From contig NZ_CP022685.1 of assembly GCF_002556545.1 (NCBI RefSeq), forward strand, positions 8,782,001 through 8,846,000: 64,000 nt of DNA, given 5' to 3'. Made by a program: the position numbers and the translations under genes. This DNA comes from Streptomyces formicae (GTDB lineage: Bacteria > Actinomycetota > Actinomycetes > Streptomycetales > Streptomycetaceae). The notes beneath the pieces were generated by a model. That model worked only from the letters and a program-made list of their open reading frames with translations. It searched no databases and was not told where the DNA came from. This document shows, one piece after another, positions 1,785 to 39,639 of this stretch; the first letter of the stretch is position 1; each line of letters starts with the position of its first letter.

Positions 1785-1792
1785 GGGACGAC

Positions 1793-2989
1793 ATGTCGCA
1801 GGAGCGCGGGACGATCCCGCTGTACACCCGCCGCACGGGCCTCGACCCGTCCGACGAGTTGCGCCGCGCCACCGAAGGGCAGCCCGTCAGCACGCTCGGC
1901 GAGGTGCCCGAAGGCGGCACCGCCTGGCTGGTGACGGGCTATCACGAGGTGCGCCAGGTACTCGGCGACCACGTCCGCTTCTCCACCCGCCGCCGCGTCG
2001 GCTCGCGGGCGCAGGACGCGGACGGCTACCGGCCCGACGAGGCCATCGGGCAGCTCATGGACTACGACCCGCCCGACCACACCCGGCTGCGCAAGATGCT
2101 CACGCCCGAGTTCACGCACCGCCGCATCCGCAGGCTCGGGCCGAGGATCGAGGAGATCGTCGAGGAGCGTCTCGACCACGTCGAACGCGCCGGTCAACCC
2201 GCCGACCTGGTGGAGCGGTTCGCGACGCCGGTCGCGGGCGCCGTCCTGTGCGAACTGATCGGGGTGCCCCGCGACGACCGGGGGGACTTCCTGCGCCGCT
2301 GCCACACACACCTGGCGACAGGACAGGGACGACAGCGCCGGGCGAGCGCGGGCAACGCGTTCACCCGCTACCTCGCCGCCCTCGTGGCACGCCAGCGCGC
2401 CGACCCCGACGAAGGCTTCATCGGCATGCTCGTGCGCGACCACGGCGAGGAGTTCACCGACAAGGAACTGCGCGGCGTCTGCGTCCTGTTGATGCTCGCG
2501 GGTCTCGACAACATCTCGGGCATGATCGGCCTCGGCACGCTCGCCCTGCTCCAGCACCCCGACCAGCTCGCGGCCCTGCGCCGCGACCCGGCGGCGCTGG
2601 ACCGGGCCGTCGACGAACTGCTGCGCCATCTGTCCGTGCCGCACGCGCCCACGCCCCGTACCGCCCTGGAGGACGTCACCGTCGCGGGCCGGCGCATCAA
2701 GGCGGGGGACACCGTCGTCTGCTCGATCCCGATGGCCAACCGCGACCCGGCGCTCACCGCGCTGCCCGACCGCCTCGACCTCATGCGCGAGCCGGTCGCC
2801 CACGTCGCCTTCGGCCACGGCATCCACCACTGCCTGGGCGCCGCCCTCGCCAGGCAGGAACTGCGGATCGCCTTCGCGGCGCTGCTGCGCCGCTTCCCGG
2901 CGCTGCGCGTCGCGGAACCCGCGCGGGACGTGGCGTTCCGGGTCAGGTCCACCGCGTACGGCGTGGAAAGCCTGCCGGTGGCCTGGTGA
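1793..2989 (+). CDS. Cytochrome P450 (second of tandem pair)
   Basis: A 398-residue P450 starting 8 bases after the first. Heme loop 'FGHGIHHCLGAALAR' (Cys347), ExxR at E275-L-L-R278, and the same 'YDPPDHTRLRKM' block as its neighbour. The I-helix reads A236-G-L-D-N240: the acid Asp is kept but the conserved Thr is replaced by Asn. Length and layout match carrier-protein- or peptide-acting P450s of nonribosomal peptide clusters, and the neighbouring thioesterase and halogenase support that setting. The ferredoxin partner is not encoded nearby. The exact substrate cannot be read from the sequence. Confidence 0.93.
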   Translation: MSQERGTIPLYTRRTGLDPSDELRRATEGQPVSTLGEVPEGGTAWLVTGYHEVRQVLGDHVRFSTRRRVGSRAQDADGYRPDEAIGQLMDYDPPDHTRLRKMLTPEFTHRRIRRLGPRIEEIVEERLDHVERAGQPADLVERFATPVAGAVLCELIGVPRDDRGDFLRRCHTHLATGQGRQRRASAGNAFTRYLAALVARQRADPDEGFIGMLVRDHGEEFTDKELRGVCVLLMLAGLDNISGMIGLGTLALLQHPDQLAALRRDPAALDRAVDELLRHLSVPHAPTPRTALEDVTVAGRRIKAGDTVVCSIPMANRDPALTALPDRLDLMREPVAHVAFGHGIHHCLGAALARQELRIAFAALLRRFPALRVAEPARDVAFRVRSTAYGVESLPVAW

Positions 2990-3053
2990 GACGAGAGGGC
3001 GCGCACCACCGAGGAGATTTCGTGCTCAACAGGGAGACAGGGGTGGGGACATC

Positions 3054-4667
3054 ATGAACGGACCGGGGACCAACGGCACGGCAGGACACGACCCGGCGGC
3101 GAACGGCGCGGCTGCCGCCGTGCGCGACGTCGTCATCGTCGGCGGCGGCACGGCGGGCTGGATGACCGCCGCGTATCTGACGGCGGCCTTCGGCAACCGC
3201 GTCAAGATCACGCTCGTGGAGTCGGCGGACGTCGGGACCATCGGCGTCGGCGAGGCCACGTTCAGCGACATCAGGCACTTCTTCGAGTTCCTCGGCCTCG
3301 CCGAACGGGACTGGATGCCCGCCTGCAACGCGACGTACAAGCTCGCGGTCCGCTTCGAGAACTGGCGCGAGCCAGGCCACCACTTCTACCACCCCTTCGA
3401 GCAGCTCAGGTCCGTCAAGGGCTTCCCGCTGACCGACTGGTGGCTGCGCTACCCCACCAGCAAGCGGTTCGACACCGACTGCTTCGTGATGGCCTCGCTG
3501 ATCGACGCCAACCGCAACCCGCGCTACCTCGACAACCGGCTCCTGGAGCAGGAGTTCGTCGAGTCCGACGACCTGCCGAACACGATCGCCGAGTACCAGG
3601 GGGCCCAGTTCCCCTACGCCTACCACTTCGAGGCGCACCTGCTCGCCAAGTACCTGACGAAGTACGCCACGGAACGCGGCGTGCGGCACGTGGTCGACAA
3701 CGTCGTGGACGTCGGCCTCGACGAGCGCGGCTGGCTCTCGCACGTGACCACCGCCGAGCACGGCCGCCTCACCGGCGACCTCTTCGTCGACTGCACGGGA
3801 TTTCGCGGGCTGCTCATCAACAAGGCGCTCGCGGAGCCGTTCGTGTCCTACCAGGACACCCTGCCCAACGACAGCGCGGTCGCCCTCCAGGTCCCCATGG
3901 ACATGGACAAGGACCCGCTGCGGCCGTGCACCACGGCCACCGCGCAGGACGCGGGCTGGATCTGGACCATCCCGCTGATCAGCCGCATCGGCACCGGCTA
4001 CGTCTACGCCAGTGACTACATCGATGCCGAGGAGGCCGAGCGCACCCTGCGCGAGTTCGTCGGGCCCGCAGCGGCCGACGCGTCCGCCAACCACATCAGG
4101 ATGCGCATCGGCCGCAGCCGCCGCTCCTGGGTCAACAACTGCGTGGCCATCGGCCTGTCCAGCGGCTTCGTCGAGCCCCTCGAATCCACCGGGATCTTCT
4201 TCATCCACTACGCGATCGAGCAGCTGGTCAAGTACTACCCGGCGGCCGACTGGGACCAGTCGCTGCGCGACCAGTACAACGGCGCGGTGATGAACGTCAT
4301 GGACGGCGTACGGGAGTTCCTCGTCCTGCACTACCGGGGCGCCAAGCGCGCCGACAACCAGTACTGGCGCGACACCAAGATCCGCACCGTGCCGGACCCG
4401 CTGGCCGAACGTCTGGAGCAGTGGGAGAGCAAGGTCCCCGACGCGGGCACCGTCTACCCGCGCTACCACGGGCTGCCGCCCTACTCGTACAACTGCATCC
4501 TGCTCGGCACCGGCGGCATCGACGTGCGGCCCTCGCCCGCGCTCGACCTGATCGACGAGAAGGACGCGCTCGCGGAGTTCCAGGCGGTGCGGGACAAGGC
4601 GCGGCACCTGGTGCGGACGCTGCCGACGCAGAACGAGTACTTCCGCCGGATGCGCGAGGGGGTGTGA
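3054..4667 (+). CDS. FAD-dependent tryptophan-type halogenase
   Basis: A 537-residue flavin-dependent halogenase using FADH2, O2 and halide to install Cl or Br on an electron-rich ring. The N-terminal nucleotide-binding motif is V-G-G-G-T-A-G-W (about residues 29-36). The catalytic Lys of the family lies in 'NATYKLAVRF' (K96). The diagnostic W-x-W-x-I-P motif is present as 'GWIWTIP', and 'GFVEPLESTGIFF' matches the chloride/FAD region of PrnA-like enzymes. The first 22 residues before the FAD strand are a low-complexity leader. It sits between two P450s and a flavin reductase, so it is almost certainly a tailoring enzyme of the same product. Free tryptophan versus a carrier-bound residue cannot be decided here. 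Confidence 0.93.
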   Translation: MNGPGTNGTAGHDPAANGAAAAVRDVVIVGGGTAGWMTAAYLTAAFGNRVKITLVESADVGTIGVGEATFSDIRHFFEFLGLAERDWMPACNATYKLAVRFENWREPGHHFYHPFEQLRSVKGFPLTDWWLRYPTSKRFDTDCFVMASLIDANRNPRYLDNRLLEQEFVESDDLPNTIAEYQGAQFPYAYHFEAHLLAKYLTKYATERGVRHVVDNVVDVGLDERGWLSHVTTAEHGRLTGDLFVDCTGFRGLLINKALAEPFVSYQDTLPNDSAVALQVPMDMDKDPLRPCTTATAQDAGWIWTIPLISRIGTGYVYASDYIDAEEAERTLREFVGPAAADASANHIRMRIGRSRRSWVNNCVAIGLSSGFVEPLESTGIFFIHYAIEQLVKYYPAADWDQSLRDQYNGAVMNVMDGVREFLVLHYRGAKRADNQYWRDTKIRTVPDPLAERLEQWESKVPDAGTVYPRYHGLPPYSYNCILLGTGGIDVRPSPALDLIDEKDALAEFQAVRDKARHLVRTLPTQNEYFRRMREGV

Positions 4668-4675
4668 CCAGCGGG

Positions 4676-5209
4676 ATGGACGCCGAGTTCCGCGAGATGA
4701 TGGCGTCGTTCCCCACCGGCGTCTCGGTGGTGACGGCCAGGGACGGCGGCTCCGCGCCGTGGGGCATGACGTGCTCGTCGCTGTGCAGCCTCAGCGTGGA
4801 CCCGCCGACGCTCCTGACGTGCCTGCGCACGGAGAGCCCCACGCTGCGCGCGGTGCTCGCCAGCGGGGCGTTCGCGGTGAACCTGCTGCGCGGGGACGCC
4901 GACTGGGTCGCGGCGCTGTTCGCCTCCGGCGCGCCCGACCGGTTCGACAAGGTCGCCTGGCGGCCCGCGCGGCACACCCGCAGCCCCGCGCTGATCGAGG
5001 CCGCGCACGCCGTCGCCGAGTGCACCGTGGCGCGCACCCACCCCTCGGGCGACCACGTGATCGTCGTGGGAACGGTGCGCGCCGTCGAGCGTTTCGGCGG
5101 CTTCGAGCGCGAGAGCGCGCTGCTCTACGGGTTCCGCAGGTACGGCGAATGGTCGCCGGGCGTCCCGGCCGCGGCCGGTGACTTCCGGGTCAGGGAACGG
5201 GAGGGGTGA
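4676..5209 (+). CDS. Flavin reductase partner of the halogenase
   Basis: A 177-residue short-chain flavin:NAD(P)H reductase of the split-barrel type that supplies reduced flavin to the halogenase. Family signs are the N-terminal 'MMASFPTGVSVVTA', the 'GMTCSSLCSLSVDPP' FMN loop, and 'GAFAVNLL' followed by the C-terminal 'GDHVIVVGTV' strand. ATG 4676 lies 8 bases after the halogenase stop. A GTG at 4664 overlapping that stop is an alternative that would add four residues. Tight coupling to the halogenase is typical of Trp-halogenase cassettes. Confidence 0.9.
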   Translation: MDAEFREMMASFPTGVSVVTARDGGSAPWGMTCSSLCSLSVDPPTLLTCLRTESPTLRAVLASGAFAVNLLRGDADWVAALFASGAPDRFDKVAWRPARHTRSPALIEAAHAVAECTVARTHPSGDHVIVVGTVRAVERFGGFERESALLYGFRRYGEWSPGVPAAAGDFRVREREG

Positions 5210-5215
5210 GGGCCG

Positions 5216-6595
5216 GTGGGGTTCCCCGGGGTGGGGGCGGGCGGCACGGCGACGGCGGGTGACGTGTTCGCGGCCGCCCCCGTCGCGCCGATCGCGGCGC
5301 ATCCGCTGCTCGTCTTCCTGCTCCAGGTCGGGCTCCTGCTGCTGCTCGCCATCCTGCTCGGCAGGGTGGCCGCCCGCTGCGGGCTCCCCGCGATCGTCGG
5401 CGAGCTGGGCGCGGGCGTGCTGCTGGGCCCCTCGCTCTTCGGCTGGCTCGCGCCGGGCGTCACGGCCTGGCTGCTGCCCGCGGACCCCGCGCAGGTCCAT
5501 CTCCTGGACGCCGTCGGGCAGCTCGCGGTGCTGCTCCTCGTCGGCCTCACCGGGATCGAGATGGACCTGCGGATGATCCGCCGCAGGGGAGCCACCGCGC
5601 TGCGCGTCAGCCTCGCCGGACTCCTGGTGCCGCTGGCGCTCGGCATCGGGCTCGGGCATCCGCTGGCCGGGATGCTCGGCATCGGCGCGTCCGACCGGCA
5701 GATGTTCGCGCTCTTCCTGGGCGTGGCGATGTGCGTCAGCGCCATCCCGGTCATCGCCAAGACCCTGATGGACATGAACCTCATGCACCGCGACGTCGGC
5801 CAGCTGACCCTCGCCGCGGGGATGATCGACGACACCTTCGGCTGGCTCATGCTCTCCGTCGTCTCGGCGATGACCGTGGGCGGGCTGAGCGCGGGGGTGT
5901 TCGGGCACGCCATCGGCTCCCTGCTGCTCGTCCTGGTCCTCGCGGTGCTGCTCGGCCGCCCGCTCGTGCGGCGCGCCCTGCGGCTCTGCAAGGGCTCGGA
6001 GGAGCGGACGGTCTCGGCGGCCGCCGCGATGATCGTCCTCGCTGCGGCGGGCACCCAGGCCCTCGGCCTCGAAGCGGTGTTCGGCGCGTACCTCTGCGGG
6101 ATGCTCATCGGCTCCAGCGGGGAGTTCGACCGGTCCCGTACGGCGTCGCTGCGCATGGTCGTCCTCGCGGTCCTCGCCCCCGTCTTCTTCGCCACGGCGG
6201 GGCTGCGGATCGACCTGCGGGCCCTCGCGGAACCCGCGGTGCTCGGGGCCGCCCTGATCGTGCTCGCGGTCGCGATCGTCGGGAAGTTCGTGGGCGCCTA
6301 CATCGGCGCGCGGCTGAGCAGGCTGAGCCGCTGGGAGGCGCTCGCGCTCGGCGCGGGGATGAACGCCAGGGGCGTCATCGAGGTGATCGTGGCCATGGTC
6401 GGGCTGCGGCTCGGCATCCTCGACACCCGGACGTACACGATCGTCGTCCTGGTCGCGGTGGTCACCTCCGTGATGGCGCCGCCGCTCCTGAAGGCGGCCA
6501 TGAAGCGCATCGACTGCACGCGCGAGGAGGAGCTGCGGCTCACCGAGTGGCGCGGGACGCCGGTGCGGGGAAGCCCGGAGCGGGCCGGGCGCTGA
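5216..6595 (+). CDS. CPA2-type cation/proton antiporter
   Basis: A 459-residue polytopic membrane protein with about 12 hydrophobic segments and a Na+/H+ exchanger (Kef-like) fold. The start is GTG 5216, 6 bases after the reductase stop. Family-like stretches include 'GELGAGVLLGPSLFGWL', 'AVLLLVGLTGIEMDLRMI', the unwound-helix region 'LTLAAGMIDDTFGWL' with paired Asp, and 'GAGMNARGVIEVIVAMVGL'. Antiporters of this type recur at the edge of halogenated peptide clusters, for example glycopeptides, where a self-protection or export role has been suggested. It is the last gene before a strong hairpin and so closes the operon. Confidence 0.88.
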   Translation: MGFPGVGAGGTATAGDVFAAAPVAPIAAHPLLVFLLQVGLLLLLAILLGRVAARCGLPAIVGELGAGVLLGPSLFGWLAPGVTAWLLPADPAQVHLLDAVGQLAVLLLVGLTGIEMDLRMIRRRGATALRVSLAGLLVPLALGIGLGHPLAGMLGIGASDRQMFALFLGVAMCVSAIPVIAKTLMDMNLMHRDVGQLTLAAGMIDDTFGWLMLSVVSAMTVGGLSAGVFGHAIGSLLLVLVLAVLLGRPLVRRALRLCKGSEERTVSAAAAMIVLAAAGTQALGLEAVFGAYLCGMLIGSSGEFDRSRTASLRMVVLAVLAPVFFATAGLRIDLRALAEPAVLGAALIVLAVAIVGKFVGAYIGARLSRLSRWEALALGAGMNARGVIEVIVAMVGLRLGILDTRTYTIVVLVAVVTSVMAPPLLKAAMKRIDCTREEELRLTEWRGTPVRGSPERAGR

Positions 6596-14284: not shown

Positions 14285-15247
14285 CTACGCGGCCGTGCTG
14301 AGGGAGAGCGCGAAGCGCCCTCTCTCATCCGTCCACCAGTGGCTCAGCTTCAGGTCCGCGGCGGCGAGTTCGGAGCGTACGCCATCCTCCCTGAACTTCG
14401 CCGAGACCTCCGTGCGGACGTCCTCGCCCGCGGTGAAGTCGACCGCGAGGTCGAGCGCCGGGATCTTCACCGTCTGGTCGGACCGCGAGCGCAGCCGCAT
14501 CTCGATCCACTCGTGCTCGCGGTCCCAGACGGCCACGTGCGCGAAGGCCGCGGGGTCGAAGTCGGCCTGCAGCTCGCGGTTCATCACCGTGAGGACGTTC
14601 TTGTTGAAGGCGGCGGTCACTCCGGAACCGTCGTCGTAGGCGGAGACGAGCACGGATTCGTCCTTCACCAGGTCCGTGCCGAGCAACAGCATGTCGCCGG
14701 GGGAGAGCAGCCCGCGCACCGAGGCGAGGAAGGCCGCGCGCTCCGCGGGCAGCAGATTGCCGATCGTGCCGCCGAGGAAGGCGACGAGGCGCGGCCCGGG
14801 GGTGCCGGGCAGCGCGAGCCCGCGGGTGAAGTCGGCGATCAGCGCGTGCACGGCGAGCGAGGGGCGCTGGGCGAGCAGCGCGTTCGCCGCCCCGGTCAGC
14901 GCGCTCTCGCTGACGTCCACGGGGACGTAGGTGTGCAGGGTGGCCATGGCGTCGATGAGGTGACGGGTCTTCTCCGAGGAGCCCGAACCCAGTTCGATCA
15001 GCGTCCGCGCGCCGGTGACCTCCGCGATCTCGGCGGCGCGGGCGACCAGGATCTCGCGCTCGGCGCGCGTCGGGTAGTACTCGGGCAGGGTGGTGATCTC
15101 CTCGAAGAGGGCACTGCCGCGTGCGTCGTAGAACCACTTGGGCGGCAGGGTCTTGGGGGTGCGGGTCAGGCCGTGCAGTACGTCGGCGCGCAGCGCGGCG
15201 TCGGTGGCGTCCTCGGGCAGGGTCCTGGTCAGGAGGAACGGGCTCAC
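14285..15247 (-). CDS. egtD: L-histidine N-alpha-methyltransferase EgtD
   Basis: A 320-residue SAM-dependent methyltransferase that trimethylates histidine to hercynine, the first committed intermediate of ergothioneine. Family sequence includes 'LPPKWFYDARGSALFEEIT' and 'LPEYYPTRAEREIL' near the N-terminus, the SAM site 'LIELGSGSSEKTRHLIDA', and 'VAFLGGTIGNLLP'. It starts at GTG 15247 overlapping the egtC stop by 4 bp and is the last gene of egtABCD, all coupled on the minus strand. Confidence 0.95.
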   Translation of the reverse strand: MSPFLLTRTLPEDATDAALRADVLHGLTRTPKTLPPKWFYDARGSALFEEITTLPEYYPTRAEREILVARAAEIAEVTGARTLIELGSGSSEKTRHLIDAMATLHTYVPVDVSESALTGAANALLAQRPSLAVHALIADFTRGLALPGTPGPRLVAFLGGTIGNLLPAERAAFLASVRGLLSPGDMLLLGTDLVKDESVLVSAYDDGSGVTAAFNKNVLTVMNRELQADFDPAAFAHVAVWDREHEWIEMRLRSRSDQTVKIPALDLAVDFTAGEDVRTEVSAKFREDGVRSELAAADLKLSHWWTDERGRFALSLSTAA

Positions 15248-15999
15248 GCGGTGGGCTCCTTGAGCGGTGTCAGCAGTACGTCGGTGCGGCTTGCGGCGAG
15301 CAGGGTGCGATCGGGCACCTCGCGCCAGTGCGGATCGTCGTCGTAGGGCTCTGAGGCGACGACGGTGCGGCGGTCGGGCTCCGCGAGGTACCAGAGGGTG
15401 TCGCCCCAGGCGGTCGCGGCGATCGTGTCGCCGTTGGTGAGCAGGAGGTTGAGGCGCGATCCGGGGGCGGCCTCCGCGACCTCGGCGACGGTGTCGGCGA
15501 GGGCCTGGCCCTCCTCGTCACCGGCCCGCAGCCGGTGCAGCACGAGCGCCCACACCAGCGCGGAGTCGCAGCGCGCCTCCATCGAGAGCAGCTCGGCGGC
15601 CGGAAGGCGGGCGGCGAGGGACGCGAGGGAGCGCGGCCAGCCCGCGATCGCGCCGTTGTGGCTGAACAGCCAGGGCCCCGCGGTGAAAGGGGCGGCCGCT
15701 GCCTCCCCGTCCGCGCCCCCGAGGGTCGCGTCCCGCACCGCGCCGAGCAGCGCCCCGGTGCGCACGACCCTGGCCAGGTCGGCGAAGGACTGGTCGCCCC
15801 AGATGGGCCCCGCGCGGCGGTAGCGGGCGGGCACCGGATCGCCCTCGGCGTACCAGCCCACGCCGAAGCCGTCGGCGTTGACGGTGCCGTGGCGCTGGCG
15901 CCGGGGCTCCCAGGACTGGCGGTACAGGCCATGCGCGGGCTCCACGAGCAGGCCCCCGAGCGGCTCGGGCGGGCCGAGGAAGGCGAGGTGACGGCACAT
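15244..15999 (-). CDS. egtC: Gamma-glutamyl-hercynylcysteine sulfoxide amidohydrolase EgtC
   Basis: A 251-residue class-II glutamine-amidotransferase-like Ntn hydrolase that removes the gamma-glutamyl group from gamma-glutamyl-hercynylcysteine sulfoxide. The start is fixed by the need for Cys directly after the initiator Met: 'MCRHLAFLG' at 15999 gives the N-terminal nucleophile Cys2. Other family blocks are 'NADGFGVGWY', 'FSHNGAIAGW' and 'SEPYDDDPHW'. Its ATG overlaps the egtB stop by one base (TGATG). Confidence 0.95.
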   Translation of the reverse strand: MCRHLAFLGPPEPLGGLLVEPAHGLYRQSWEPRRQRHGTVNADGFGVGWYAEGDPVPARYRRAGPIWGDQSFADLARVVRTGALLGAVRDATLGGADGEAAAAPFTAGPWLFSHNGAIAGWPRSLASLAARLPAAELLSMEARCDSALVWALVLHRLRAGDEEGQALADTVAEVAEAAPGSRLNLLLTNGDTIAATAWGDTLWYLAEPDRRTVVASEPYDDDPHWREVPDRTLLAASRTDVLLTPLKEPTA

Positions 16000-17342
16000 C
16001 AGGCAGCTCCCTCGGGACCGGCACAGGGAGCGACGTCGCGTGCCGTGCGGAACCCGGCGAAGATCTGCCGCCGCACCGGGTGGTCCCAGTTGCGGAACGT
16101 GCCCCGGCAGGCCACCGCGTCGACGGAGAAGGCGCCGCCGCGCAGCACCTTGTAGTCGCCGCCGAAGAACACGTCCGAGTACTCGCGGTAGGGGAACGCG
16201 GCGAAGCCCGGGTAGGGCAGGAAGCCGCTGGAGGTCCACTCCCACACGTCGCCGATCAACTGGCGTACGCCGAGAGGTGATTCACCCGCCGGGTAGCTCC
16301 CCGCGGGGGCGGGCCGCAGATGTCGCTGGCCCAGGTTGGCCCGCTCGGGCGTGGGGTCCGCGTCGCCCCACGGATAGCGCATGGAGCGATCGGATGACGG
16401 GTCGTACCTGGCGGCCTTCTCCCACTCCTCCTCGCTGGGCAGCCGCCGCCCGGCCCAGCGCGCGAAGGCGTCGGCCTCGTACCAACTGACGTGCAGGACC
16501 GGCTCGTCGGGCGGCACCTGCTCCACCCTCCCGAAGTGCCGGCGCAGCCACTGTCCGCCCTCGCGGCGCCAGAACAGCGGTGCGGTGAGCCGGTTCTGAC
16601 GGACCATCGCCCAGCCCTCCGGCGCCCACCAGCGCTCCTGGTCGTAGCCGCCGTCCTCGACGAAACGCAGGTAGGCGGCGTTCGTCACCGGTGTGGTGTC
16701 GATGAAGAAGGGCGGTACGAGACGGTGGTGGGCCGGGCGTTCGTTGTCCAGGGCCCATGGCTCGGTCGAGGTGCCCATGGTGAACGGGCCGCCGGGGACC
16801 AGGACTTCGGCGGGCCCGGCGAAGGGCGCTTCGAGCGGTGCGGGGTCGGGCGCGGTGAGCGCCGTCGGGCCCGCGCGCAACTGGTGCGTGATCAGCATCG
16901 TCTCGTCGTGCTGCTGCTCGTGCTGCGCGATCATGCCGAACGCGAACCCCGCGTCGGTGAGCGGAGTGCCGCGCAGCGGTGTCCGCTCCAGGACGTCGAG
17001 CGCGCGCCCGCGCACCTCGGCCGCGTAGTGGCGGGCCTCGGCGGGCGCGAGCAGCGGCAGGGCGGGGCGCTCGGCGCGGGGATGCTCGAAGGCGTCGTAC
17101 AGCGGATCGATCTCGGGCCGCATGGCGTCGCGCCCGGCGACCGCGCGCAGCAGCCACTGCTCCTCCTGGTTGCCGATGTGTGCCAGGTCCCAGACCAGGG
17201 GCGACATCAACGGCGAGTGCTGCGCGGTGAGTTCGGTGTCCTCGACACAGGTGGTGAGCAGATTGGTGCGGTCCCTGGCGGCGAGCAGCGCGGCGTGCGC
17301 GCGCTCCCGCAGGTCTTCGGGGTCGGCGGTGGGCCCTGTCAT
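15999..17342 (-). CDS. egtB: Ergothioneine sulfoxide synthase EgtB
   Basis: A 447-residue non-heme iron enzyme joining gamma-glutamylcysteine and hercynine with O2 to give the sulfoxide. The N-terminal DinB domain supplies the iron ligands, visible as His55 in 'WDLAHIGNQEEQW' and the HxxxH pair in 'AQHEQQHDETM' (His141, His145). The C-terminal FGE-sulfatase domain carries 'FTMGTSTEPWALDNERPAH', 'VSWYEADAFARWAGRRLPSE' and 'VWEWTSSGFLPYPGF'. Normal length; start ATG overlaps the egtA stop by 4 bp. Confidence 0.96.
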   Translation of the reverse strand: MTGPTADPEDLRERAHAALLAARDRTNLLTTCVEDTELTAQHSPLMSPLVWDLAHIGNQEEQWLLRAVAGRDAMRPEIDPLYDAFEHPRAERPALPLLAPAEARHYAAEVRGRALDVLERTPLRGTPLTDAGFAFGMIAQHEQQHDETMLITHQLRAGPTALTAPDPAPLEAPFAGPAEVLVPGGPFTMGTSTEPWALDNERPAHHRLVPPFFIDTTPVTNAAYLRFVEDGGYDQERWWAPEGWAMVRQNRLTAPLFWRREGGQWLRRHFGRVEQVPPDEPVLHVSWYEADAFARWAGRRLPSEEEWEKAARYDPSSDRSMRYPWGDADPTPERANLGQRHLRPAPAGSYPAGESPLGVRQLIGDVWEWTSSGFLPYPGFAAFPYREYSDVFFGGDYKVLRGGAFSVDAVACRGTFRNWDHPVRRQIFAGFRTARDVAPCAGPEGAA

Positions 17343-18715
17343 CGGCGGGCGTCCTTCCCGGGTGTGCCGTGAGGCGTGTGGTCAAGGGAGCGGGAGCCGG
17401 GCGCACCGCTGTGGCGCAGTGAGTCCAGGAGGTCGTCGGCGGGGCAGCGGCCGCGCGCCACGTACTGATCGCCGAAGGTGACGACGGCGTCCCGGACGTC
17501 CGTGCTCACGTCCATCCGGGGCAGCGCGTCGGCCGCCGCGGCGAAGCAGGCGACGGCCGCCTCGCGCAGCTCGGCGTCGGCCGGACCGTGACGCGCCGCG
17601 TCCAGCCAGAGCGGGCTCTGCGGCGCGGCGGGCGAGCCCGGTGGTGCGGCCCGCTCCGCGAGGGGCTTGACCGCGCGGTAGGCGGTCTCGGCGGCCTCCG
17701 GGTCGTCGAAGAGCGCGGCGGTGACGGCGAGCGGCACGATCCAGCCGTCCTCGCCGGGCTGCGCGTCGACCATGCGCAGTTCCAGGTGGCCGCGCGGGCG
17801 CACCGGCGGGAACAGCGTGGTCAGGTGGTAGTCGAGGTCCTCGCGGGTGGGCGCCCTCGGCGCTCTCGAACGGGTCCAGGCACGGAAGGTGAGACCTTCC
17901 GGCACGGGCCAGGCGGTGTGTCCCGTGCTGTCGTCGAGGTCTCTGACACACATGACGGGCGCGTCGAGCGCGTGCCGGGTCCAGGTCTCACGGGGCTCGC
18001 CGTCGAGCGGTGGCGCCCCCGACCTGCCCGGGGCGATGCCCGCCCAGATGGCCTGCCGGGTGGAGCGCCAGCCGGTGCCGCGGCCCTCCTGGAGCGGCGA
18101 GTTGGCGAACGCGGCGACCAGGACGGGCCCGAGCAGGTGCGCGAGGCGCCAGCGCCGCGCGTAGCCGAGCGGCCCCGGCTCCTCGTGTCCGGCGTCCAGG
18201 CAGATCTGCACGGACGCCGTCGAGCACATCATGCGGCGGCCGGAAGGACCTGCCCTGTCGAAGCAGGACTCCATGGCGTCGTAGCGCGGCTCGTGCAGGA
18301 TTCTGGCCGGTGGCCGCCACGGGTCGGCGCCGAAGCCGCTGAGGGTGAGCCGGTGGGAACACAACGCGTCACGGACGACGCGGAGATCGGCCCGCATGGC
18401 CGAGATGCACTCCATCAGGGACGAGGCGGGAAGCGAGCTGAGCTCCAGCTGCCCGCCGGGTTCGACGGTGATGAGCGAGTGCAGGGGCAGGGCCCGCAGT
18501 GCGGCATAGGCCGCTTCGAGGCGGGCGGTGGGAACGGGCTTGTGGGGCAGTCCCGGTTCGTGGACGAGCCATTCCAGTTCGACACCGGTGGTGCGAGGCG
18601 GCCCGGTCTTGAAGCAGATGCCGCGGACCAGCGCCTCCACCTCGGCCTCGGTCACCGTGTCCAGGGCCCTGGTACGCGCTGGTGTGTCGTGGTGCGTACA
18701 GTCTCCCTCTGGCAT
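17339..18715 (-). CDS. egtA: Glutamate-cysteine ligase EgtA
   Basis: A 458-residue GCS2-type ligase making gamma-glutamylcysteine for ergothioneine. 'TGVELEWLVHEPG' near residue 43, 'ITVEPGGQLELSS' and 'MMCSTASVQICLDAG' are the ATP/glutamate-binding blocks of the family. It is first in egtABCD; four enzymes overlap by 1-4 bp, implying one transcript and coupled translation. No egtE (the PLP C-S lyase) is present nearby, which is usual, since that step is encoded elsewhere. Confidence 0.95.
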   Translation of the reverse strand: MPEGDCTHHDTPARTRALDTVTEAEVEALVRGICFKTGPPRTTGVELEWLVHEPGLPHKPVPTARLEAAYAALRALPLHSLITVEPGGQLELSSLPASSLMECISAMRADLRVVRDALCSHRLTLSGFGADPWRPPARILHEPRYDAMESCFDRAGPSGRRMMCSTASVQICLDAGHEEPGPLGYARRWRLAHLLGPVLVAAFANSPLQEGRGTGWRSTRQAIWAGIAPGRSGAPPLDGEPRETWTRHALDAPVMCVRDLDDSTGHTAWPVPEGLTFRAWTRSRAPRAPTREDLDYHLTTLFPPVRPRGHLELRMVDAQPGEDGWIVPLAVTAALFDDPEAAETAYRAVKPLAERAAPPGSPAAPQSPLWLDAARHGPADAELREAAVACFAAAADALPRMDVSTDVRDAVVTFGDQYVARGRCPADDLLDSLRHSGAPGSRSLDHTPHGTPGKDARR

Positions 18716-33527: not shown

Positions 33528-33724
33528 TGTCTGCCTCCTTCAGTGGGCTGCAACGACGCCTAGTAGTTGAATATTCCACGATGTCTACGAGCGCACTACG
33601 TAGCAGCCGTCCTTAGGCGGGCGCCCGTTGAATGCCGCCACACCTCGCTCCTGCGCCCCCGTGGCCACGGCGTACCAGGGAACCCGAAGCTCACCGCATC
33701 ACGAAGTTCACTCTGGAGCGCACC

Positions 33725-34855
33725 ATGCCCTACGAAGAGAATTCCGGAGACGATGAAGTCGCCCTGGCGAGGCGACGTCTGGACCAGCTCGACCAGCAGA
33801 TCATCCGCGTCGTGAAGGAACGCGTGTCGTTCTCGGCGCTCGTCCAGTCGACCCGCATCGCCCACGGCGGCTGCCGGACCGACAGCACCCGCGAGAACGT
33901 CGTCATCGGCCGTTACCTGGACGGCCTCGGCCCGGCGGGCCGGGACATCGGCCTGAGCCTGCTGAGGCTGTGCCGGGGCAGGGACCCCGCGCCCACGGCC
34001 GCGCGCGGCCGTGGGCGGACCCGCAGGGCCTTCCTGGGGCCTGCCGCTTCGGTGTCCCACCAGGCAGCCGAGGCGTGGCCGGGACCGCCCGGCGCGGAGC
34101 TGCTGCCGGTGGACTCCTTGGAGGAGGCCGTGGCGGGGCCGGGGGAGGGGGTGGCGGAGGAGTCCGTCGTACCGCTGGAGAACAGCGTCTCGGGGCCGGT
34201 CCACGACACCCTGTTCGCGCTCGCCGCCACCGAAGGCGTGACCGTGGCGGGGCAGGCGCGCCTCCCCGTGAACTGGGTGCTGGCCGCGGCCCCTGGCACG
34301 GACCTCACCAGCATCGACACCGTGGCAAGCCACCCGCACGCCCTCGCGCAGACCAAGCGGTGGCTCACCGGCGTACTCCCTCGGGCCGCCCGCACGAGCA
34401 CGTCCTCCACGTCCCGTTCGGCGGCAGGACTGTTGCGGCCGGACGCCCCGTACGAAGCCGTCATCTGCACCCGGCAGGCGGCCGAGCACTACCGCCTGCG
34501 CGTTCTCGCGTGCCCGGAACGGGCCCGGACCCCGGTGACCCGCTTCGTTCTCGTGCGGCCCACGGCCGCGCCGCCCGCCCCGACCGGCAACGACGTCACG
34601 AGCGTGGTGCTCACCGCGTCCGCCGGGGCCCTGACCGGGATCCTGGAGTGCCTGACACAGGAGCGGGCGGAGATCCTCGGCCTGCACGCGCTCCCCGCCG
34701 GAGAGGCGTCCCGGCTGCTCTGGCTCGACGTCCGCGGCCACGCGACCGACGCGCACATGCTGCACGTCCTGAGCGCCCTGCACGAACACTGCGAGCGCCT
34801 GCGCGTGGCGGGGACCTATCCCGCCGCCGCTCCCCACGACCATCAGGAGCCCTGA
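33725..34855 (+). CDS. Fused chorismate mutase - prephenate dehydratase (P-protein-like)
   Basis: A 376-residue bifunctional enzyme predicted to turn chorismate into phenylpyruvate. Residues 1-85 are an AroQ mutase of the Streptomyces type ('ARRRLDQLDQQIIRVVKERV', 'RTDSTRENVVIGRYLDGLG', 'LLRLCRG'). Residues 101-280 are prephenate dehydratase ('RRAFLGPAASVSHQAA', 'ESVVPLENSVSGPV', and the catalytic T-R-F in 'PVTRFVLVRP'). Residues 290-365 are an ACT domain, which keeps 'GAL' but has 'LHALP' where Phe-regulated enzymes have 'IESRP', so feedback control may be lost. Such a fusion is unusual in actinomycetes, whose PheA is normally separate from the mutase. ATG 33725 has GGAG upstream; its stop overlaps the next ATG by one base. 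Confidence 0.88.
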   Translation: MPYEENSGDDEVALARRRLDQLDQQIIRVVKERVSFSALVQSTRIAHGGCRTDSTRENVVIGRYLDGLGPAGRDIGLSLLRLCRGRDPAPTAARGRGRTRRAFLGPAASVSHQAAEAWPGPPGAELLPVDSLEEAVAGPGEGVAEESVVPLENSVSGPVHDTLFALAATEGVTVAGQARLPVNWVLAAAPGTDLTSIDTVASHPHALAQTKRWLTGVLPRAARTSTSSTSRSAAGLLRPDAPYEAVICTRQAAEHYRLRVLACPERARTPVTRFVLVRPTAAPPAPTGNDVTSVVLTASAGALTGILECLTQERAEILGLHALPAGEASRLLWLDVRGHATDAHMLHVLSALHEHCERLRVAGTYPAAAPHDHQEP

Positions 34856-36480
34856 TGCCGACCCCCGTACCCCCCGCCTCCACACCCCCCACCGGCGACC
34901 CGTCCACCGACATCACCGGCGCCGAACTCGTGCTCCGCGTCCTGAGGGACGAGGGCGTGCGCCACGTCTTCGGCAATCCCGGCACCACCGAACTGCCCCT
35001 GATCCAGCGGTTGGCGAGCCAGCGCGACATCCAGTACGTGCTCGCGCTGCAAGAGGCGTCGGCGGTGGCCATGGCCGACGGCCACGCACGCGTCACAGGA
35101 CGACCGGCGTTCGTCAACCTGCACGCGGCCGCCGGGCTCGGCAACGGCATGGGCGCGCTGACCAACGCGGCCGCCGCGCGGGTTCCCCTCGTGGTCACGG
35201 CCGGACAACAGGATCTGCGGCACCTCATCCACGAACCCGTCCTCGCCGGTGATCTGACGGGTCTGGCCCGGGCGACCGTCAAGTGGTCCCACGAGGTGAG
35301 CACCCGCACCGAGCTCGGCACGGCCCTGCACCAGGCGTTCCGCATCGCCCAGGCGCCGCCCGCGGGGCCGGTGTTCCTCTCCCTGCCGATGAACCTGCTC
35401 GACGAAGTGGGCCCGCCGCCGCCGCGGCGCACCACGATCCGCTACGCCGCCGCGGCCCCCGTCGGCGACCTCGCCAAACTCCTCAACGAGACACCGCGCG
35501 ACGACATCGCGCTGGTCTTCGGCGACGAACTCGCGCGCCTCGCGCCCGCCGAGGGTCTCGCGCTCGCGGAGCGGCTCGGGACGCCCGTGTGGGGCACCGG
35601 CTGGCCCGCCACCAACCCCTTTCCCACGCGGCATCCGCTGTGGCGCGGGTACCTGCCCACCCATGTGCCGGGCATCCGCGAGGCCCTTGCCCCGTACCGC
35701 CTGGTCGTCATCGCCGGGGCGCAGCCGTTCTCCCTCTACTATCCGTACGCCCCCGGGCCGCTGCTCAGCGACCGCACCCAGGTCGCCCAGATCACCGAAG
35801 ACCCCTCGGCGCCGGGGCGCGACACTCCCGTCGACATGGCCTTGCACGGCCAACTGCGGCCCACCCTGCGTGAGTTGCTCGACTCGCTGCCCTCCGAGGG
35901 GGAAGCCGGGTACGCGTCGCAGGACCCGTCGCGGCACGGCCCCGAGCTGCCCGCGCTCGATCTCCCCTCCCTGGCCCGCGTGTTGGCGGCCACGCTCCCC
36001 GACGGCGCCATCGTGTGCGACGAGGCCCCACAGGCGGCCCGCCACATCCGCGCGGCTCTGGACCTGCGGCGCGCCAACCAGTACCAGTGGGTGGCGGGCG
36101 GGCTGGGCTGGGCGATGCCCGCGGCCGTCGGCGTCAGTCTGGCGCGCGACCGTGCCGCCGTGCTGTGCACCGTCGGCGACGGCGCGGCGATGTACTGCCC
36201 GCAGGCCCTGTGGACCGCGGCGCGCCTGGAACTCCCCATCGGATTCGTGGTCGCGAACAACCGCGAGTACCGGGTCCTCAAGGACAACTGGCGACAGCGC
36301 GACCCCCGGCCGCCCCGGCACCTCGGCATGGACCTCGACCGGCCGGCCGTGGACTTCGTCGCGCTGTCCCACTCCATGGGCGTGCCCGCGGGCCGGGCCG
36401 GATCGACCGGGGAACTCACCGAGACCTTGACCGACGGCTACCGCACGGGCCGTCCCTTCCTCGTCCAGGTGGACCTGTAG
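34855..36480 (+). CDS. ThDP-dependent 2-oxo-acid decarboxylase (benzoylformate decarboxylase-like)
   Basis: A 541-residue thiamine-diphosphate enzyme in three-domain PDC/BFD layout. The ThDP-activating Glu67 is in 'LALQEASAVAMADGHAR', the substrate His (His70 of MdlC) is kept as His90 in 'NLHAAAG', and the ThDP/Mg motif runs from 'GDGAAMYCPQ' to 'VANNREY'. 'NPGTTELPLI' has Thr where MdlC has Ser26, and the loop holding MdlC His281 reads 'FSLYYPYAPG' with Tyr/Pro instead. So the enzyme is BFD-like but with a changed pocket. TGATG overlap with the mutase-dehydratase gene suggests that phenylpyruvate, or a close relative, is its substrate. Confidence 0.87.
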   Translation: MPTPVPPASTPPTGDPSTDITGAELVLRVLRDEGVRHVFGNPGTTELPLIQRLASQRDIQYVLALQEASAVAMADGHARVTGRPAFVNLHAAAGLGNGMGALTNAAAARVPLVVTAGQQDLRHLIHEPVLAGDLTGLARATVKWSHEVSTRTELGTALHQAFRIAQAPPAGPVFLSLPMNLLDEVGPPPPRRTTIRYAAAAPVGDLAKLLNETPRDDIALVFGDELARLAPAEGLALAERLGTPVWGTGWPATNPFPTRHPLWRGYLPTHVPGIREALAPYRLVVIAGAQPFSLYYPYAPGPLLSDRTQVAQITEDPSAPGRDTPVDMALHGQLRPTLRELLDSLPSEGEAGYASQDPSRHGPELPALDLPSLARVLAATLPDGAIVCDEAPQAARHIRAALDLRRANQYQWVAGGLGWAMPAAVGVSLARDRAAVLCTVGDGAAMYCPQALWTAARLELPIGFVVANNREYRVLKDNWRQRDPRPPRHLGMDLDRPAVDFVALSHSMGVPAGRAGSTGELTETLTDGYRTGRPFLVQVDL

Positions 36481-36488
36481 GACCCCGC

Positions 36489-37550
36489 TCAGCGCTGCCC
36501 GCGCCACTCCCTGGCAAGGAGGTAGCCGAGGTAGGCGCCGCCGAGGGCGAGGGTGTAGATGCCCACGGGCAGGTCGTCGAAGAGGGGCAGCTGCTGGGCG
36601 GTCAGATCGGCCGCGACCAGGAGCAGCGCGCCCAGGAGCGTGGACAGGACGAGATGCGGTCCGCTGCCGCGGCTGATCCGCTTGGCGATCTGCGGAGCGG
36701 TCAGCGAGATGAACGCGATCGGGCCCGCGACGCTCACCGCTCCCGCGGACAGCGCGATGGACAGCAGGACGGCGAGCGTCTTGGTGCGGGCCGGCGCGGC
36801 TCCGATGCTGGTGGCCAGGTCGTCGCCCATCTCGCCCATGGCCAGCGGCCGGGCGATCAGGGCGGCCAAGGGGAGCGCCACCGCGAGGACGAGCCAGATG
36901 GTGGTGGCGTCGTCCCAGGAGCGGGCGGTGAGGCTTCCGTTGATGTACGCGGTGAGCGAGGTCGCCTTGTCGCGTTCGATCGAGTAGACGACGTACTGGG
37001 TGAGCGACGTGGCGATCGCCGCGACGCCGATACCGGCCACGACGAGGCGTCCTGGACTGCGGAACCCGCTGCCCGTGGAGACGTAGACGACGCCCATGGC
37101 GACCAGCGCCCCGACGAGCGCCCCCAGGGGGACGGGGACCGTGTCGGGGAACAGCAGGGCGACGGTGGCGGCACCGGCTCCCGCACCCGCGCCCAGGCCG
37201 ATGACGTCGGGGCTGCCCAGCGGATTGCGGGTGACCGACTGGAACAGGGCGCCCGACAGGCCGAAGGCGGCACCCGTGCCGATCGCGACGACGAGACGGG
37301 GCCCGCGCAGCCGGTTGAGCACGAAGGCGTCGATGCCGGACGCGTCGCCGGTCAAGGCCGAGGGCAGATCGGCGAGTTCGATGCCGAGGCGGCCCAGGTG
37401 AAGGGTGGCGACGGCGGCGACGGCCAGCAGGACGAGGATGAGCAGAGCGGCGGCCGCGGTCCTGCGGCGTACGGGTATCGCTACCTGTCCGCCGATCCGC
37501 AGCGTGGTGCGGCGGGCGGTTCGGGTCGGCCTGGAGTCCGTGGTGGTCAT
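36489..37550 (-). CDS. Iron-siderophore ABC permease (FecCD family), second subunit
   Basis: A 353-residue permease with about ten TM segments. Family signatures are 'LVVAIGTGAAFGLSGALFQSVTRNPLGSPD' broken over residues about 78-107, 'GAPIAFI'-type 'VAGPIAFISLTAPQIAKRI', and 'LPVGIYTLALGGAYLGYLL'. ATG 37550 overlaps the stop of the first permease by 4 bp. Last gene of the operon; its end is 8 bases from the stop of the convergent ThDP enzyme. Confidence 0.93.
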   Translation of the reverse strand: MTTTDSRPTRTARRTTLRIGGQVAIPVRRRTAAAALLILVLLAVAAVATLHLGRLGIELADLPSALTGDASGIDAFVLNRLRGPRLVVAIGTGAAFGLSGALFQSVTRNPLGSPDVIGLGAGAGAGAATVALLFPDTVPVPLGALVGALVAMGVVYVSTGSGFRSPGRLVVAGIGVAAIATSLTQYVVYSIERDKATSLTAYINGSLTARSWDDATTIWLVLAVALPLAALIARPLAMGEMGDDLATSIGAAPARTKTLAVLLSIALSAGAVSVAGPIAFISLTAPQIAKRISRGSGPHLVLSTLLGALLLVAADLTAQQLPLFDDLPVGIYTLALGGAYLGYLLAREWRGQR

Positions 37551-38584
37551 GAGGTCCCCCGCATCTTGCGGACGGCGATCAGCAGGGCCGGAGCGCCGAT
37601 GAAGGCGGTGACGACCCCGACCATGAGTTCCTGCGGTCGCAGCAGGACACGTCCGACGACATCGGCGAGCAGGACGAGCGACGGGCCGAGGAGCGCCGAG
37701 AAGAGCACCTGGAAGCGGAAGTCGGTGCCCACCAGGACCCGTACGAGATGGGGTACGGCCAGGCCGACGAACGCGATCGGTCCGACGGCCGCGGTGGCCG
37801 CGGCGCTCAGCAGGGTCGCGGCGAGCAGCCCGGCCGCCTTCACCTGGTGCGGTTTGGTGCCGAGCGAGGTCGCGGTGTCGTCGCCCATCGCCATGGCGTT
37901 GAGGCGCGGGCCGAGCAGCGCGGCGATGAGGAGACCGCCCAGGGCGAAGGGCAGCACCGACCGGACGACGTCGAAGTCGCGGCCGCCCAGGGCCCCGACG
38001 ACCCAGTAGCGGTAGGTCTCGAACACCTTGGGATGGCTCAGCGTCACGGCCTGGATGAACGCGGTGAGCACCGCGGAGAGCACGGCCCCGGCCAGCACGA
38101 GCCGGGCGGGACCGCCGAGGCCGCCCGCCGTGCCCAGGGCGTGGACGGCCAGCGCGGTCAGGAACGTGCCGGGCAGTGCCCACCACATGGTGTCGCTCTG
38201 TCCGGACGCGCCCAGGTACGCGGTGGCGGCGACGATGCTTGCCGAAGCGCCCGCGTTGATCCCCAACAGGCCCGGCTCGGCCAGCGGGTTGCGGGTGATG
38301 CCCTGCATCAGGGTTCCCGCGACGGCCAGGCACGTGCCCGCGAGCACGCCGAGGACGGTGCGCGGGTAGCGGCTCTCGACGACCGTGCGCAGATAGGTGT
38401 CGCCACCGCCGCCGAGCACGTCGAAGACGTCGCCGGGGGAGTTGCTGTGGCTGCCGAACATCACGCTCGCCAGCAGGGCGCAGGCCAGCAGCGCGAGGGA
38501 GAAGGTCAGGGCGAGGGAGAGCCGGGCCGCGCTCCGCCGGCGTACGCGGACGGAGCGCGGCAACAGGCCGGTGTTCGTGGTCAC
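37547..38584 (-). CDS. Iron-siderophore ABC permease (FecCD family), first subunit
   Basis: A 345-residue FecCD permease with 'YPRTVLGVLAGTCLAVAGTLMQG', 'ITRNPLAEPGLLGINAGA' and 'VGPIAFVGLAVPHLVR', the BtuC/FepD-like coupling regions. It starts at GTG 38584, 8 bases after the binding-protein stop. It pairs with the following permease as a heterodimer. No ATPase gene is in the operon, so a shared ATPase elsewhere is required. Confidence 0.93.
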   Translation of the reverse strand: MTTNTGLLPRSVRVRRRSAARLSLALTFSLALLACALLASVMFGSHSNSPGDVFDVLGGGGDTYLRTVVESRYPRTVLGVLAGTCLAVAGTLMQGITRNPLAEPGLLGINAGASASIVAATAYLGASGQSDTMWWALPGTFLTALAVHALGTAGGLGGPARLVLAGAVLSAVLTAFIQAVTLSHPKVFETYRYWVVGALGGRDFDVVRSVLPFALGGLLIAALLGPRLNAMAMGDDTATSLGTKPHQVKAAGLLAATLLSAAATAAVGPIAFVGLAVPHLVRVLVGTDFRFQVLFSALLGPSLVLLADVVGRVLLRPQELMVGVVTAFIGAPALLIAVRKMRGTS

Positions 38585-38592
38585 TTGGGCGA

Positions 38593-39639
38593 CTACTTGT
38601 CGGCCTTGGCGATGGCGGCGTCGATCATCGGCTGGTACCGCTTGATGCTGTACGGCACGGTGAGCGGGTTGATCATGGAGGACGCCGTCACGAACGACTG
38701 GTCCGTACTGTGCACGAGAGCGCCCTTGTCGACCGCGGGGATGGCCGCGTAGAGGGGCTGCTTCTCGATCTCCTTGCGCGTCTTGTCGTCGGCGTAGAAG
38801 GTGAAGACCAGGTCGCTGCCGGACAGTTTGTCGGCGTTCTCCAGACCGATGAGAGCGGAGTCGGTGCCCTCCGTCTCCTTGAAGGTGTCGACCACGGGGT
38901 CGACCTTCAGGCCGAGCTTCGAGAGCATCTCGACGCGCTGCTCCTTGGGCTTGAACACGCCGAGGGTGCCGGGGCCCGACGTGTAGATGTAGGAGAAGCT
39001 GACGTTCTTGTACTTCGGCCGGGTGGCCGCGGCGTCGGACAGCTGCTTGTCGATCCTGCCGGTGAGGTCCTCGGCCTTCTCCGGCTGCCCGAGCGCCTTG
39101 GCGACGATCTCTATCTGCTGGTCCCAGTCGGTGCTCCACGCCTTGTCCGGGTAGGCGACGGTGGGAGCGATGTCCTTGAGGATGTCGTACTGCTTCTGCG
39201 TGACGCCCGACCACGGCGCGAGGATCACGTCCGGCTCCAGCTCGGTGATGGCCTCGATGTCGAGTTCCTCACCGCCCTTGAACTGCTTGGGCAGTTCCTT
39301 GCCCGACTTCTTCACCGCGTCGTGGACCCAGGGGAGATAGCCGGTCTTGTCACTGCCCCACGCGTAGCTCTCGACGCCGACGGGGACGGTGCCGAGCGCG
39401 ATGGCGGTCTCGGCCGAACCCTGCCCGAGCGTGACGATCCGCCGGGGCTCGGACTCGATGGTCGCCGAACCGAGCGAGCTCTTGATCGTCACGGGGAACG
39501 CCCCGTCTCCCGAGGTCTTTCCGGAGGACTTGTCTTCCTTGTCCGAGCCTCCGCACCCCGCGGCCAGCAGGCAGAGGGAGGCGGCGAGCGCGGCGGCGCC
39601 AAGCGTACGACGGTGGGGGCCGGTGAACACTGCGGGCAT
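38593..39639 (-). CDS. Iron-siderophore substrate-binding lipoprotein
   Basis: A 348-residue FepB/FhuD-like binding protein. Signal peptide with lipobox L-A-A-G-C (Cys29), an acidic Lys/Ser linker, then 'PRRIVTLGQGSAETAIALG', 'ELDIEAITELEPDVILAPW' and the C-terminal 'KGALVHSTDQSFVTASSMINPL'. It captures a ferric siderophore, probably hydroxamate type, for the two permeases downstream. AAGGA is 8 bases before the ATG. An iron box lies about 90 bp upstream, so expression should rise under iron limitation. Confidence 0.93.
   Translation of the reverse strand: MPAVFTGPHRRTLGAAALAASLCLLAAGCGGSDKEDKSSGKTSGDGAFPVTIKSSLGSATIESEPRRIVTLGQGSAETAIALGTVPVGVESYAWGSDKTGYLPWVHDAVKKSGKELPKQFKGGEELDIEAITELEPDVILAPWSGVTQKQYDILKDIAPTVAYPDKAWSTDWDQQIEIVAKALGQPEKAEDLTGRIDKQLSDAAATRPKYKNVSFSYIYTSGPGTLGVFKPKEQRVEMLSKLGLKVDPVVDTFKETEGTDSALIGLENADKLSGSDLVFTFYADDKTRKEIEKQPLYAAIPAVDKGALVHSTDQSFVTASSMINPLTVPYSIKRYQPMIDAAIAKADK

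Follow-up and report, generated by a model that had tools for sequence, protein, structure and literature searches.

Why does a streptomycete that has separate genes for chorismate mutase and prephenate dehydratase also carry a gene in which the two are fused, and why does the end of this gene overlap the start of one for a thiamine diphosphate (ThDP)-dependent enzyme? The two genes lie next to each other in Streptomyces formicae, within a stretch of 64,000 nucleotides that we refer to as the window (positions 8,782,001 to 8,846,000 of contig NZ_CP022685.1). The gene pair is confirmed as it was first described from the letters alone (the sequence-only reading, below). The chemistry predicted for the fusion protein, from chorismate to phenylpyruvate, is well supported by its domains, whereas the action of the ThDP enzyme on a phenylpyruvate-type substrate is a fair guess.

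A fused mutase and dehydratase overlapping a ThDP enzyme gene

The mutase part of the fusion protein scored above the cut-off of the NCBIfam model PRK07857 (78.8 bits against 73), just under that of TIGR01808 (50.1 against 52.15) and under that of Pfam CM_2 (22 against 27), three models that we take to stand for the AroQ-delta type. The solved structures closest to this half are those of Rv0948c-type enzymes, and Arg16, Arg33, Arg44, Arg56 and Glu57 of the fusion align with Arg18, Arg35, Arg46, Arg58 and Glu59 of Mycobacterium tuberculosis Rv0948c (2qbv), which are presumably its catalytic or active-site residues. The dehydratase half matches the Pfam domain PDT (E 5.4e-36, 124.5 bits, cut-off 25.2) and falls short of the curated equivalog PRK11898 (147.1 bits against 219). 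It retains Asn153 of an ENS motif, Gln209 of SHPHALAQ and Thr272 of TRF, positions that we assume to be catalytic after PheA of Escherichia coli. Retention of the same three motifs disfavours the other identity considered for this half, that of BacA and SalX, which we understand to be prephenate decarboxylases. Domain matches and residues thus agree with the claim that a mutase of the AroQ type is joined here to a prephenate dehydratase, and the fusion enzyme very probably makes phenylpyruvate.

The mutase and the dehydratase had been said to be normally separate, and the S. formicae genome itself bears this out: a separate dehydratase gene lies at 4.71 Mb (34% identical to the fusion) and a separate mutase gene at 5.67 Mb (44% identical), far from the fusion gene at 8.82 Mb of the 9.61-Mb contig. 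Because both housekeeping enzymes are present, the fusion is an extra copy. It also differs from the housekeeping dehydratases in its ACT tail, which retains GAL and reads HALP (residues 321-324) at the place of the ESRP or QSRP motif found in all 17 usable Streptomyces dehydratase sequences. The latter are best matches per genome, taken to be housekeeping enzymes, that were kept from 20 loci after removal of three mis-framed ones (L008, L011 and L012), and they include the separate S. formicae copy (L002). If ESRP is required for phenylalanine binding by the ACT domain, as we assume, its absence implies that feedback has been lost, which suggests that phenylalanine would not inhibit the fusion enzyme.

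The stop codon of the fusion gene and the start codon of the ThDP enzyme gene have one base in common (TGATG), so that the overlap noted in the sequence-only reading is exact, as are the limits of both open reading frames (Table 1). The GC content at codon positions 1 to 3 (0.75, 0.56 and 0.91 in the fusion gene; 0.76, 0.53 and 0.92 in the ThDP gene) follows the pattern of high-GC coding DNA.

Table 1. Features of the gene pair, in positions of the window
Feature	Position	Strand	Basis
Likely ribosome-binding site of the fusion gene, GGAG, 6 nucleotides 5' of the ATG	33715..33718	+	Read from the sequence
Fusion gene, chorismate mutase (AroQ-delta type), prephenate dehydratase and ACT tail, 376 amino acids	33725..34855	+	Pfam PDT, NCBIfam PRK07857, solved relatives of both halves
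Mutase domain, residues 10-86	33752..33982	+	Alignment to 2qbv
Dehydratase domain, residues 102-278	34028..34558	+	Pfam PF00800
ACT tail, limits approximate, by eye	34601..34828	+	Motif alignment
Likely ribosome-binding site of the ThDP gene, AGGAG, 5 nucleotides 5' of the ATG, within the end of the fusion gene	34845..34849	+	Sequence; same motif and spacing in NBC_00083
ThDP enzyme gene, benzoylformate-decarboxylase-like, 541 amino acids	34855..36480	+	Pfam, NCBIfam and PDB matches

The ThDP enzyme, its clade and the occurrence of the pair

All three TPP-enzyme domains of the ThDP protein score above the Pfam cut-offs, and its top NCBIfam model is the benzoylformate decarboxylase model PRK07092 (E 1.3e-120), whose equivalog cut-off it misses (403.7 bits against 493). 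Among the best 60 of 145 PDB matches, the 49 best are benzoylformate decarboxylases and the other 11 are acetolactate or acetohydroxyacid synthases, carboxyethylarginine synthase or BbmA; no PPDC or IpdC occurs by name among these 60. In an alignment with the benzoylformate decarboxylase of Pseudomonas putida (BFDC; 1bfd), which belongs to the same family and whose positions 281, 377 and 460 were verified, Glu47 and His70 are kept as Glu67 and His90, and Ser26, His281, Thr377 and Ala460 are replaced by Thr44, Tyr296, Pro392 and Val474, respectively. Threonine at the Ser26 position is common (88 of the 94 aligned ThDP relatives). The equation of BFDC Phe464 with Asn478 was dropped: a two-residue insertion at this point of the alignment places Arg480 opposite, and the counterpart is unsure.

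A tree of 94 sequences built by a quick method grouped the S. formicae enzyme with those of Streptomyces sp. NBC_00083, Streptomyces atriruber and Embleya hyalina, with a support of 100 in the Shimodaira-Hasegawa-like approximate likelihood ratio test (SH-aLRT), and a tree of 21 sequences that added the relatives from genomes G637 and G734 recovered a six-member group (support 100/99). The residue at the His281 position is tyrosine in S. formicae, NBC_00083 and S. atriruber and phenylalanine in Embleya; in the 94-sequence alignment, six relatives that do not belong to the clade (L051, L052, L058, L069, L116 and L132) also have tyrosine there. Between S. formicae and NBC_00083, the ThDP gene is under purifying selection (nonsynonymous rate dN 0.155, synonymous rate dS 0.637, dN/dS 0.24 over 536 codons).

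Among the matches listed from another 100 genomes of the genus, none spans both the mutase and the dehydratase; in one of these genomes (G001) a single gene encodes the two domains in reverse order and gave two matches. Matches at E <= 1e-34 from another 196 genomes of the class likewise include none that spans both. At the DNA level, the matches listed from 391 genomes of the genus other than S. formicae place a mutase match beside a ThDP match in a single one, G304, where the match within the fusion gene is limited to bases 19-226 of the mutase and the dehydratase is missing. This genome is that of NBC_00083 (identical DNA in a comparison of 3,000 bases). After it, S. atriruber (G081) has the closest ThDP DNA among these matches (69%). 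A search of 393 genomes of the family besides S. formicae, some of them shared with the genus set, returned G304 again, together with G617 (probably E. hyalina) and the ThDP relatives of G637 and G734. When the fusion protein was compared by tblastn with 94 loci (L041-L134, of which L041 and L055 are one contig), L057 of NBC_00083 alone gave a match at E <= 0.01, and neither L182, from G637, nor L183 did so (best E 0.031). A contig scan with patterns from the fusion alone gave no match, which is weak evidence of absence since most of the patterns come from the region missing in NBC_00083 and one starts with letters that differ there; a second scan covered the best 80 matches, absence from which proves little.

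The NBC_00083 locus is informative. Its ThDP gene is intact, encodes a protein 77% identical to that of S. formicae and directly follows a short gene for 129 amino acids (L057:9597-9986), whose mutase part (44 of 75 residues identical to the fusion) continues in frame into a match to fusion residues 341-366, in the last part of the ACT tail (13 of 26 identical, E 0.006, tblastn). The start of the ThDP protein (MPY) and the AGGAG with its 5-nucleotide spacing recur, with a stop-start overlap of four nucleotides instead of one. The mutase part reaches only 17 bits against CM_2 and lacks the third mutase helix, so the remnant may be inactive.

The other clade members have neighbourhoods of their own. 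Ten frames scanned at the S. atriruber locus yielded no recognisable pathway. In E. hyalina, an A-T-R protein resembling a nonribosomal peptide synthetase (NRPS; L056:5456-8587), with a thioester-reductase domain (TIGR01746, 322.5 bits, cut-off 213.35), and a flavin amine-oxidase-like protein are encoded upstream of the ThDP gene, and the contig ends 0.7 kb past it; as these three genes are consecutive (L056:5456-11689), they might form a small gene cluster. In G637, genes for an acyl carrier protein, a ketosynthase and a reductase (L182:7965-9071; above the cut-off for Pfam NAD_binding_4 and, with 80.3 bits, below that for TIGR01746) precede the ThDP frame, and an LnmK-like gene is also near. 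That frame (L182:9171-10415) is missing its middle domain and looks decayed. The ThDP gene of G734 has P450-like, cucumopine-synthase-like and SDR genes as neighbours.

Possible functions of the pair

The explanation that we favour is that the pair is a translationally coupled, two-gene precursor module of specialised metabolism. Alongside the housekeeping mutase and dehydratase, the fused enzyme would convert chorismate via prephenate to phenylpyruvate; the ThDP enzyme would take phenylpyruvate or a near aromatic 2-oxo acid and decarboxylate it on the cofactor, with either release of an aldehyde or transfer of the carbanion to an acceptor aldehyde, giving an acyloin. The fusion would boost flux and yet be expendable, as the housekeeping dehydratase also makes phenylpyruvate, and this dispensability would explain how NBC_00083 could lose the dehydratase half and keep the ThDP gene. 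The second step is supported by the gene overlap, and ThDP-dependent decarboxylation beside a dedicated supply of a phenylpyruvate-type compound has precedents in two specialised-metabolism clusters. The ThDP decarboxylase ObaH of obafluorin biosynthesis was shown to act on such a substrate with formation of an aldehyde (PMC5490192), and a substrate of this type was inferred by the authors for TpoG of the Pseudomonas tropolone pathway (PMC11481866). The latter authors place TpoG in COG3961 with IpdC, whereas the S. formicae enzyme matches benzoylformate decarboxylase models. The complete route, from chorismate through phenylpyruvate to a ThDP product, is a serious possibility that we put forward tentatively.

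Several observations weigh against this module. The sequence-only reading had the pair divert chorismate to phenylpyruvate and from there to phenylacetaldehyde or an acyloin; the domains and kept residues uphold the phenylpyruvate part, whereas the remainder is put in doubt by the family placement of the ThDP enzyme, which is on the benzoylformate decarboxylase side and not with PPDC and IpdC, and by its changed active site. If Ser26, His70 and His281 are taken as the active-site set of BFDC, two of the three positions differ (Thr44 and Tyr296) and only His90 is retained. Poor conservation of the pair weakens the second step further. Absence of the two genes together from other genomes had been named as evidence that would count against the proposal, and it is nearly what was found, with one other genome in which a mutase, and no dehydratase, adjoins the ThDP gene. 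Around the ThDP genes of S. atriruber, E. hyalina, G637 and G734, neither a mutase nor a dehydratase was detected within flanks of about 10 kb at most, some contigs ending earlier. For NBC_00083 the simplest reading is that the dehydratase part was cut, in frame, out of a former fusion gene, because there is hardly another explanation for an ACT tail that lacks its dehydratase; the dN/dS of 0.24 indicates that the ThDP enzyme has been maintained there without the dehydratase half. The mutase part is under weaker constraint between the two genomes (dN/dS 0.47 over 75 codons at dS 0.62, compared with 0.24 at dS 0.64 for the ThDP gene). Finally, none of the four nearest genes scanned in the window (for a TPR protein, two FecCD permeases and a siderophore-binding protein) belongs to an aromatic pathway.

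We take His281 of BFDC to be the residue that protonates the carbanion, and its replacement in the clade (by tyrosine in three members and by phenylalanine in Embleya) would suit a carboligase that joins a phenylpyruvate-derived carbanion to an aldehyde, with an acyloin rather than free phenylacetaldehyde as the product. Two of the five other clade members, Embleya and G637, adjoin genes for enzymes of the thioester-reductase type, whose released products are aldehydes or alcohols. However, the tyrosine is not specific to the clade, the G637 frame appears to be a decayed one, and no such reductase could be recognised around the pair in S. formicae or its NBC_00083 counterpart, as judged by inspection and by resemblance to proteins of the window rather than by a full Pfam scan. 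Moreover, ObaH supplied with glyoxylate gave no acyloin (PMC5490192). On balance, we regard a carboligase of this kind as unlikely. A broader version, in which this small clade of Streptomycetaceae as a whole would comprise acyloin synthases that couple the phenylpyruvate-derived carbanion to aldehydes, some of them supplied by neighbouring thioester reductases, and in which gene fusion would have given the S. formicae member a feedback-free chorismate-to-phenylpyruvate enzyme of its own, is quite unlikely.

The top models and solved relatives of the ThDP enzyme would suit decarboxylation of an arylglyoxylate such as benzoylformate, in which case the gene overlap would reflect general aromatic metabolism. 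Streptomyces has proposed enzymes of this type, VemE of the venemycin pathway and its kendomycin counterpart, both benzoylformate-decarboxylase-like and assigned to specialised metabolism (PMC5132015), and two loci in our set, L042 and L043, are comparable. However, the enzymes of these two loci retain the histidine corresponding to His281 (within HHY) and group in a separate clade, and their genes adjoin those for a type III polyketide synthase (PKS) or for an ECH-family protein with an aldehyde dehydrogenase; no gene that would yield an arylglyoxylate from phenylpyruvate was recognised beside the S. formicae pair, and we consider this function improbable. It is also conceivable that the adjacency is accidental, the ThDP enzyme using an unrelated 2-oxo acid and the fusion being an independent phenylalanine booster on its way to loss. 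Such a view accords with the sparse distribution: among the matches listed, only two genomes, S. formicae included, have a mutase beside the ThDP gene, one of them without a dehydratase, and four other clade members have the ThDP gene with neither. What makes accident doubtful is that in both genomes the genes overlap and the ribosome-binding site of the second lies inside the first, despite only 77% identity between the ThDP proteins and differing surroundings.

Were the precursor module borne out, the pair would be a compact cassette leading from chorismate to an aromatic aldehyde or acyloin free of phenylalanine feedback, of a kind that genome-mining tools keyed on PKS and NRPS genes could miss. 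It would also open a small uncharacterised clade of ThDP enzymes to test.

Comparison with known systems and genomic surroundings

The statement that nothing of this kind has been described in streptomycetes was too strong. According to a review, TrlH of the Streptomyces tropolone (trl) cluster is a bifunctional enzyme that converts chorismate to phenylpyruvate, and TrlG of the same cluster is proposed to take phenylpyruvate to phenylacetate; the review adds that the trl functions are largely deduced from knock-outs and are still to be verified (PMC7497051). From its gene content, we read a locus of G001 (L169:1589-9737) as trl-like: it encodes a MaoC-like protein, a class-II DAHP synthase, HpaB with a flavin reductase, a FAD monooxygenase, a hexapeptide protein and an AfsA hotdog protein. 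The fusion protein of this locus (L169:8544-9737), like that of S. formicae, combines both domains in one chain and has lost ESRP, reading LHLVP at that place. Its domain order is the opposite, dehydratase-ACT-mutase instead of mutase-dehydratase-ACT, and the two proteins are 31% identical across the dehydratase and 41% across the mutase. It adjoins the AfsA hotdog gene rather than a ThDP gene, and none of the called genes of L169 matched the ThDP enzyme. Mutase and dehydratase have thus been fused in both orders within Streptomyces, probably with independent origins.

The order of the S. formicae fusion is also that of the P-protein PheA of E. coli. Unlike PheA, the S. formicae protein has a mutase of the AroQ-delta type and has lost ESRP, and against the bifunctional P-protein model PRK10622 it scores 77.4 of 577 bits, over the dehydratase part. 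No mutase-dehydratase gene paired with a benzoylformate-decarboxylase-like gene is described in the titles and abstracts that we found in the open-access literature. What is new here is the domain order of the fusion, its ThDP partner and the ThDP clade.

As an observation in its own right, four loci (L042-L045, from G014, G025, G015 and G041) carry benzoylformate-decarboxylase-like genes in surroundings that resemble the 3,5-dihydroxybenzoate pathway of venemycin and kendomycin; the Pfam scan of this set covered four L042 proteins and two L043 proteins.

In the window, the TPR protein is encoded upstream of the pair on the opposite strand, and the two FecCD permease genes and the siderophore-binding protein gene (36489-39639, minus strand) converge on it, the first beginning nine nucleotides past its end. 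The DNA of these siderophore-uptake genes is mostly matched in six of 40 relatives (G015, G004, G019, G005, G021 and G002), and about 770 bases of it in three more; no match to the pair stands beside the uptake genes in those relatives. A functional link between the pair and the siderophore-uptake genes is not favoured, given that the latter occur in relatives without the pair. Since the neighbours are found elsewhere without the pair, and since the pair in NBC_00083 has different neighbours, it looks as if it had moved independently as a unit. Carriage by plasmids is disfavoured: at an E limit of 1e-5 the fusion has matches in 40 PLSDB records, and at 1e-50 the ThDP enzyme has matches in 67, none of which reaches 60% identity in either case. 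The S. formicae genome also encodes two PaaA/PaaC-family proteins, which would make a phenylacetate sink possible.

Two other groups of genes were noticed in the window. Genes for two P450s, a tryptophan-halogenase-like protein, a flavin reductase and a Na/H exchanger occupy positions 606-6595, perhaps as the final part of a cluster beginning ahead of the window. Ergothioneine-type genes lie at 14285-18655 on the minus strand; among their products, a histidine-specific methyltransferase and an FGE-sulfatase/DinB protein were identified by Pfam, and two others were named by eye.

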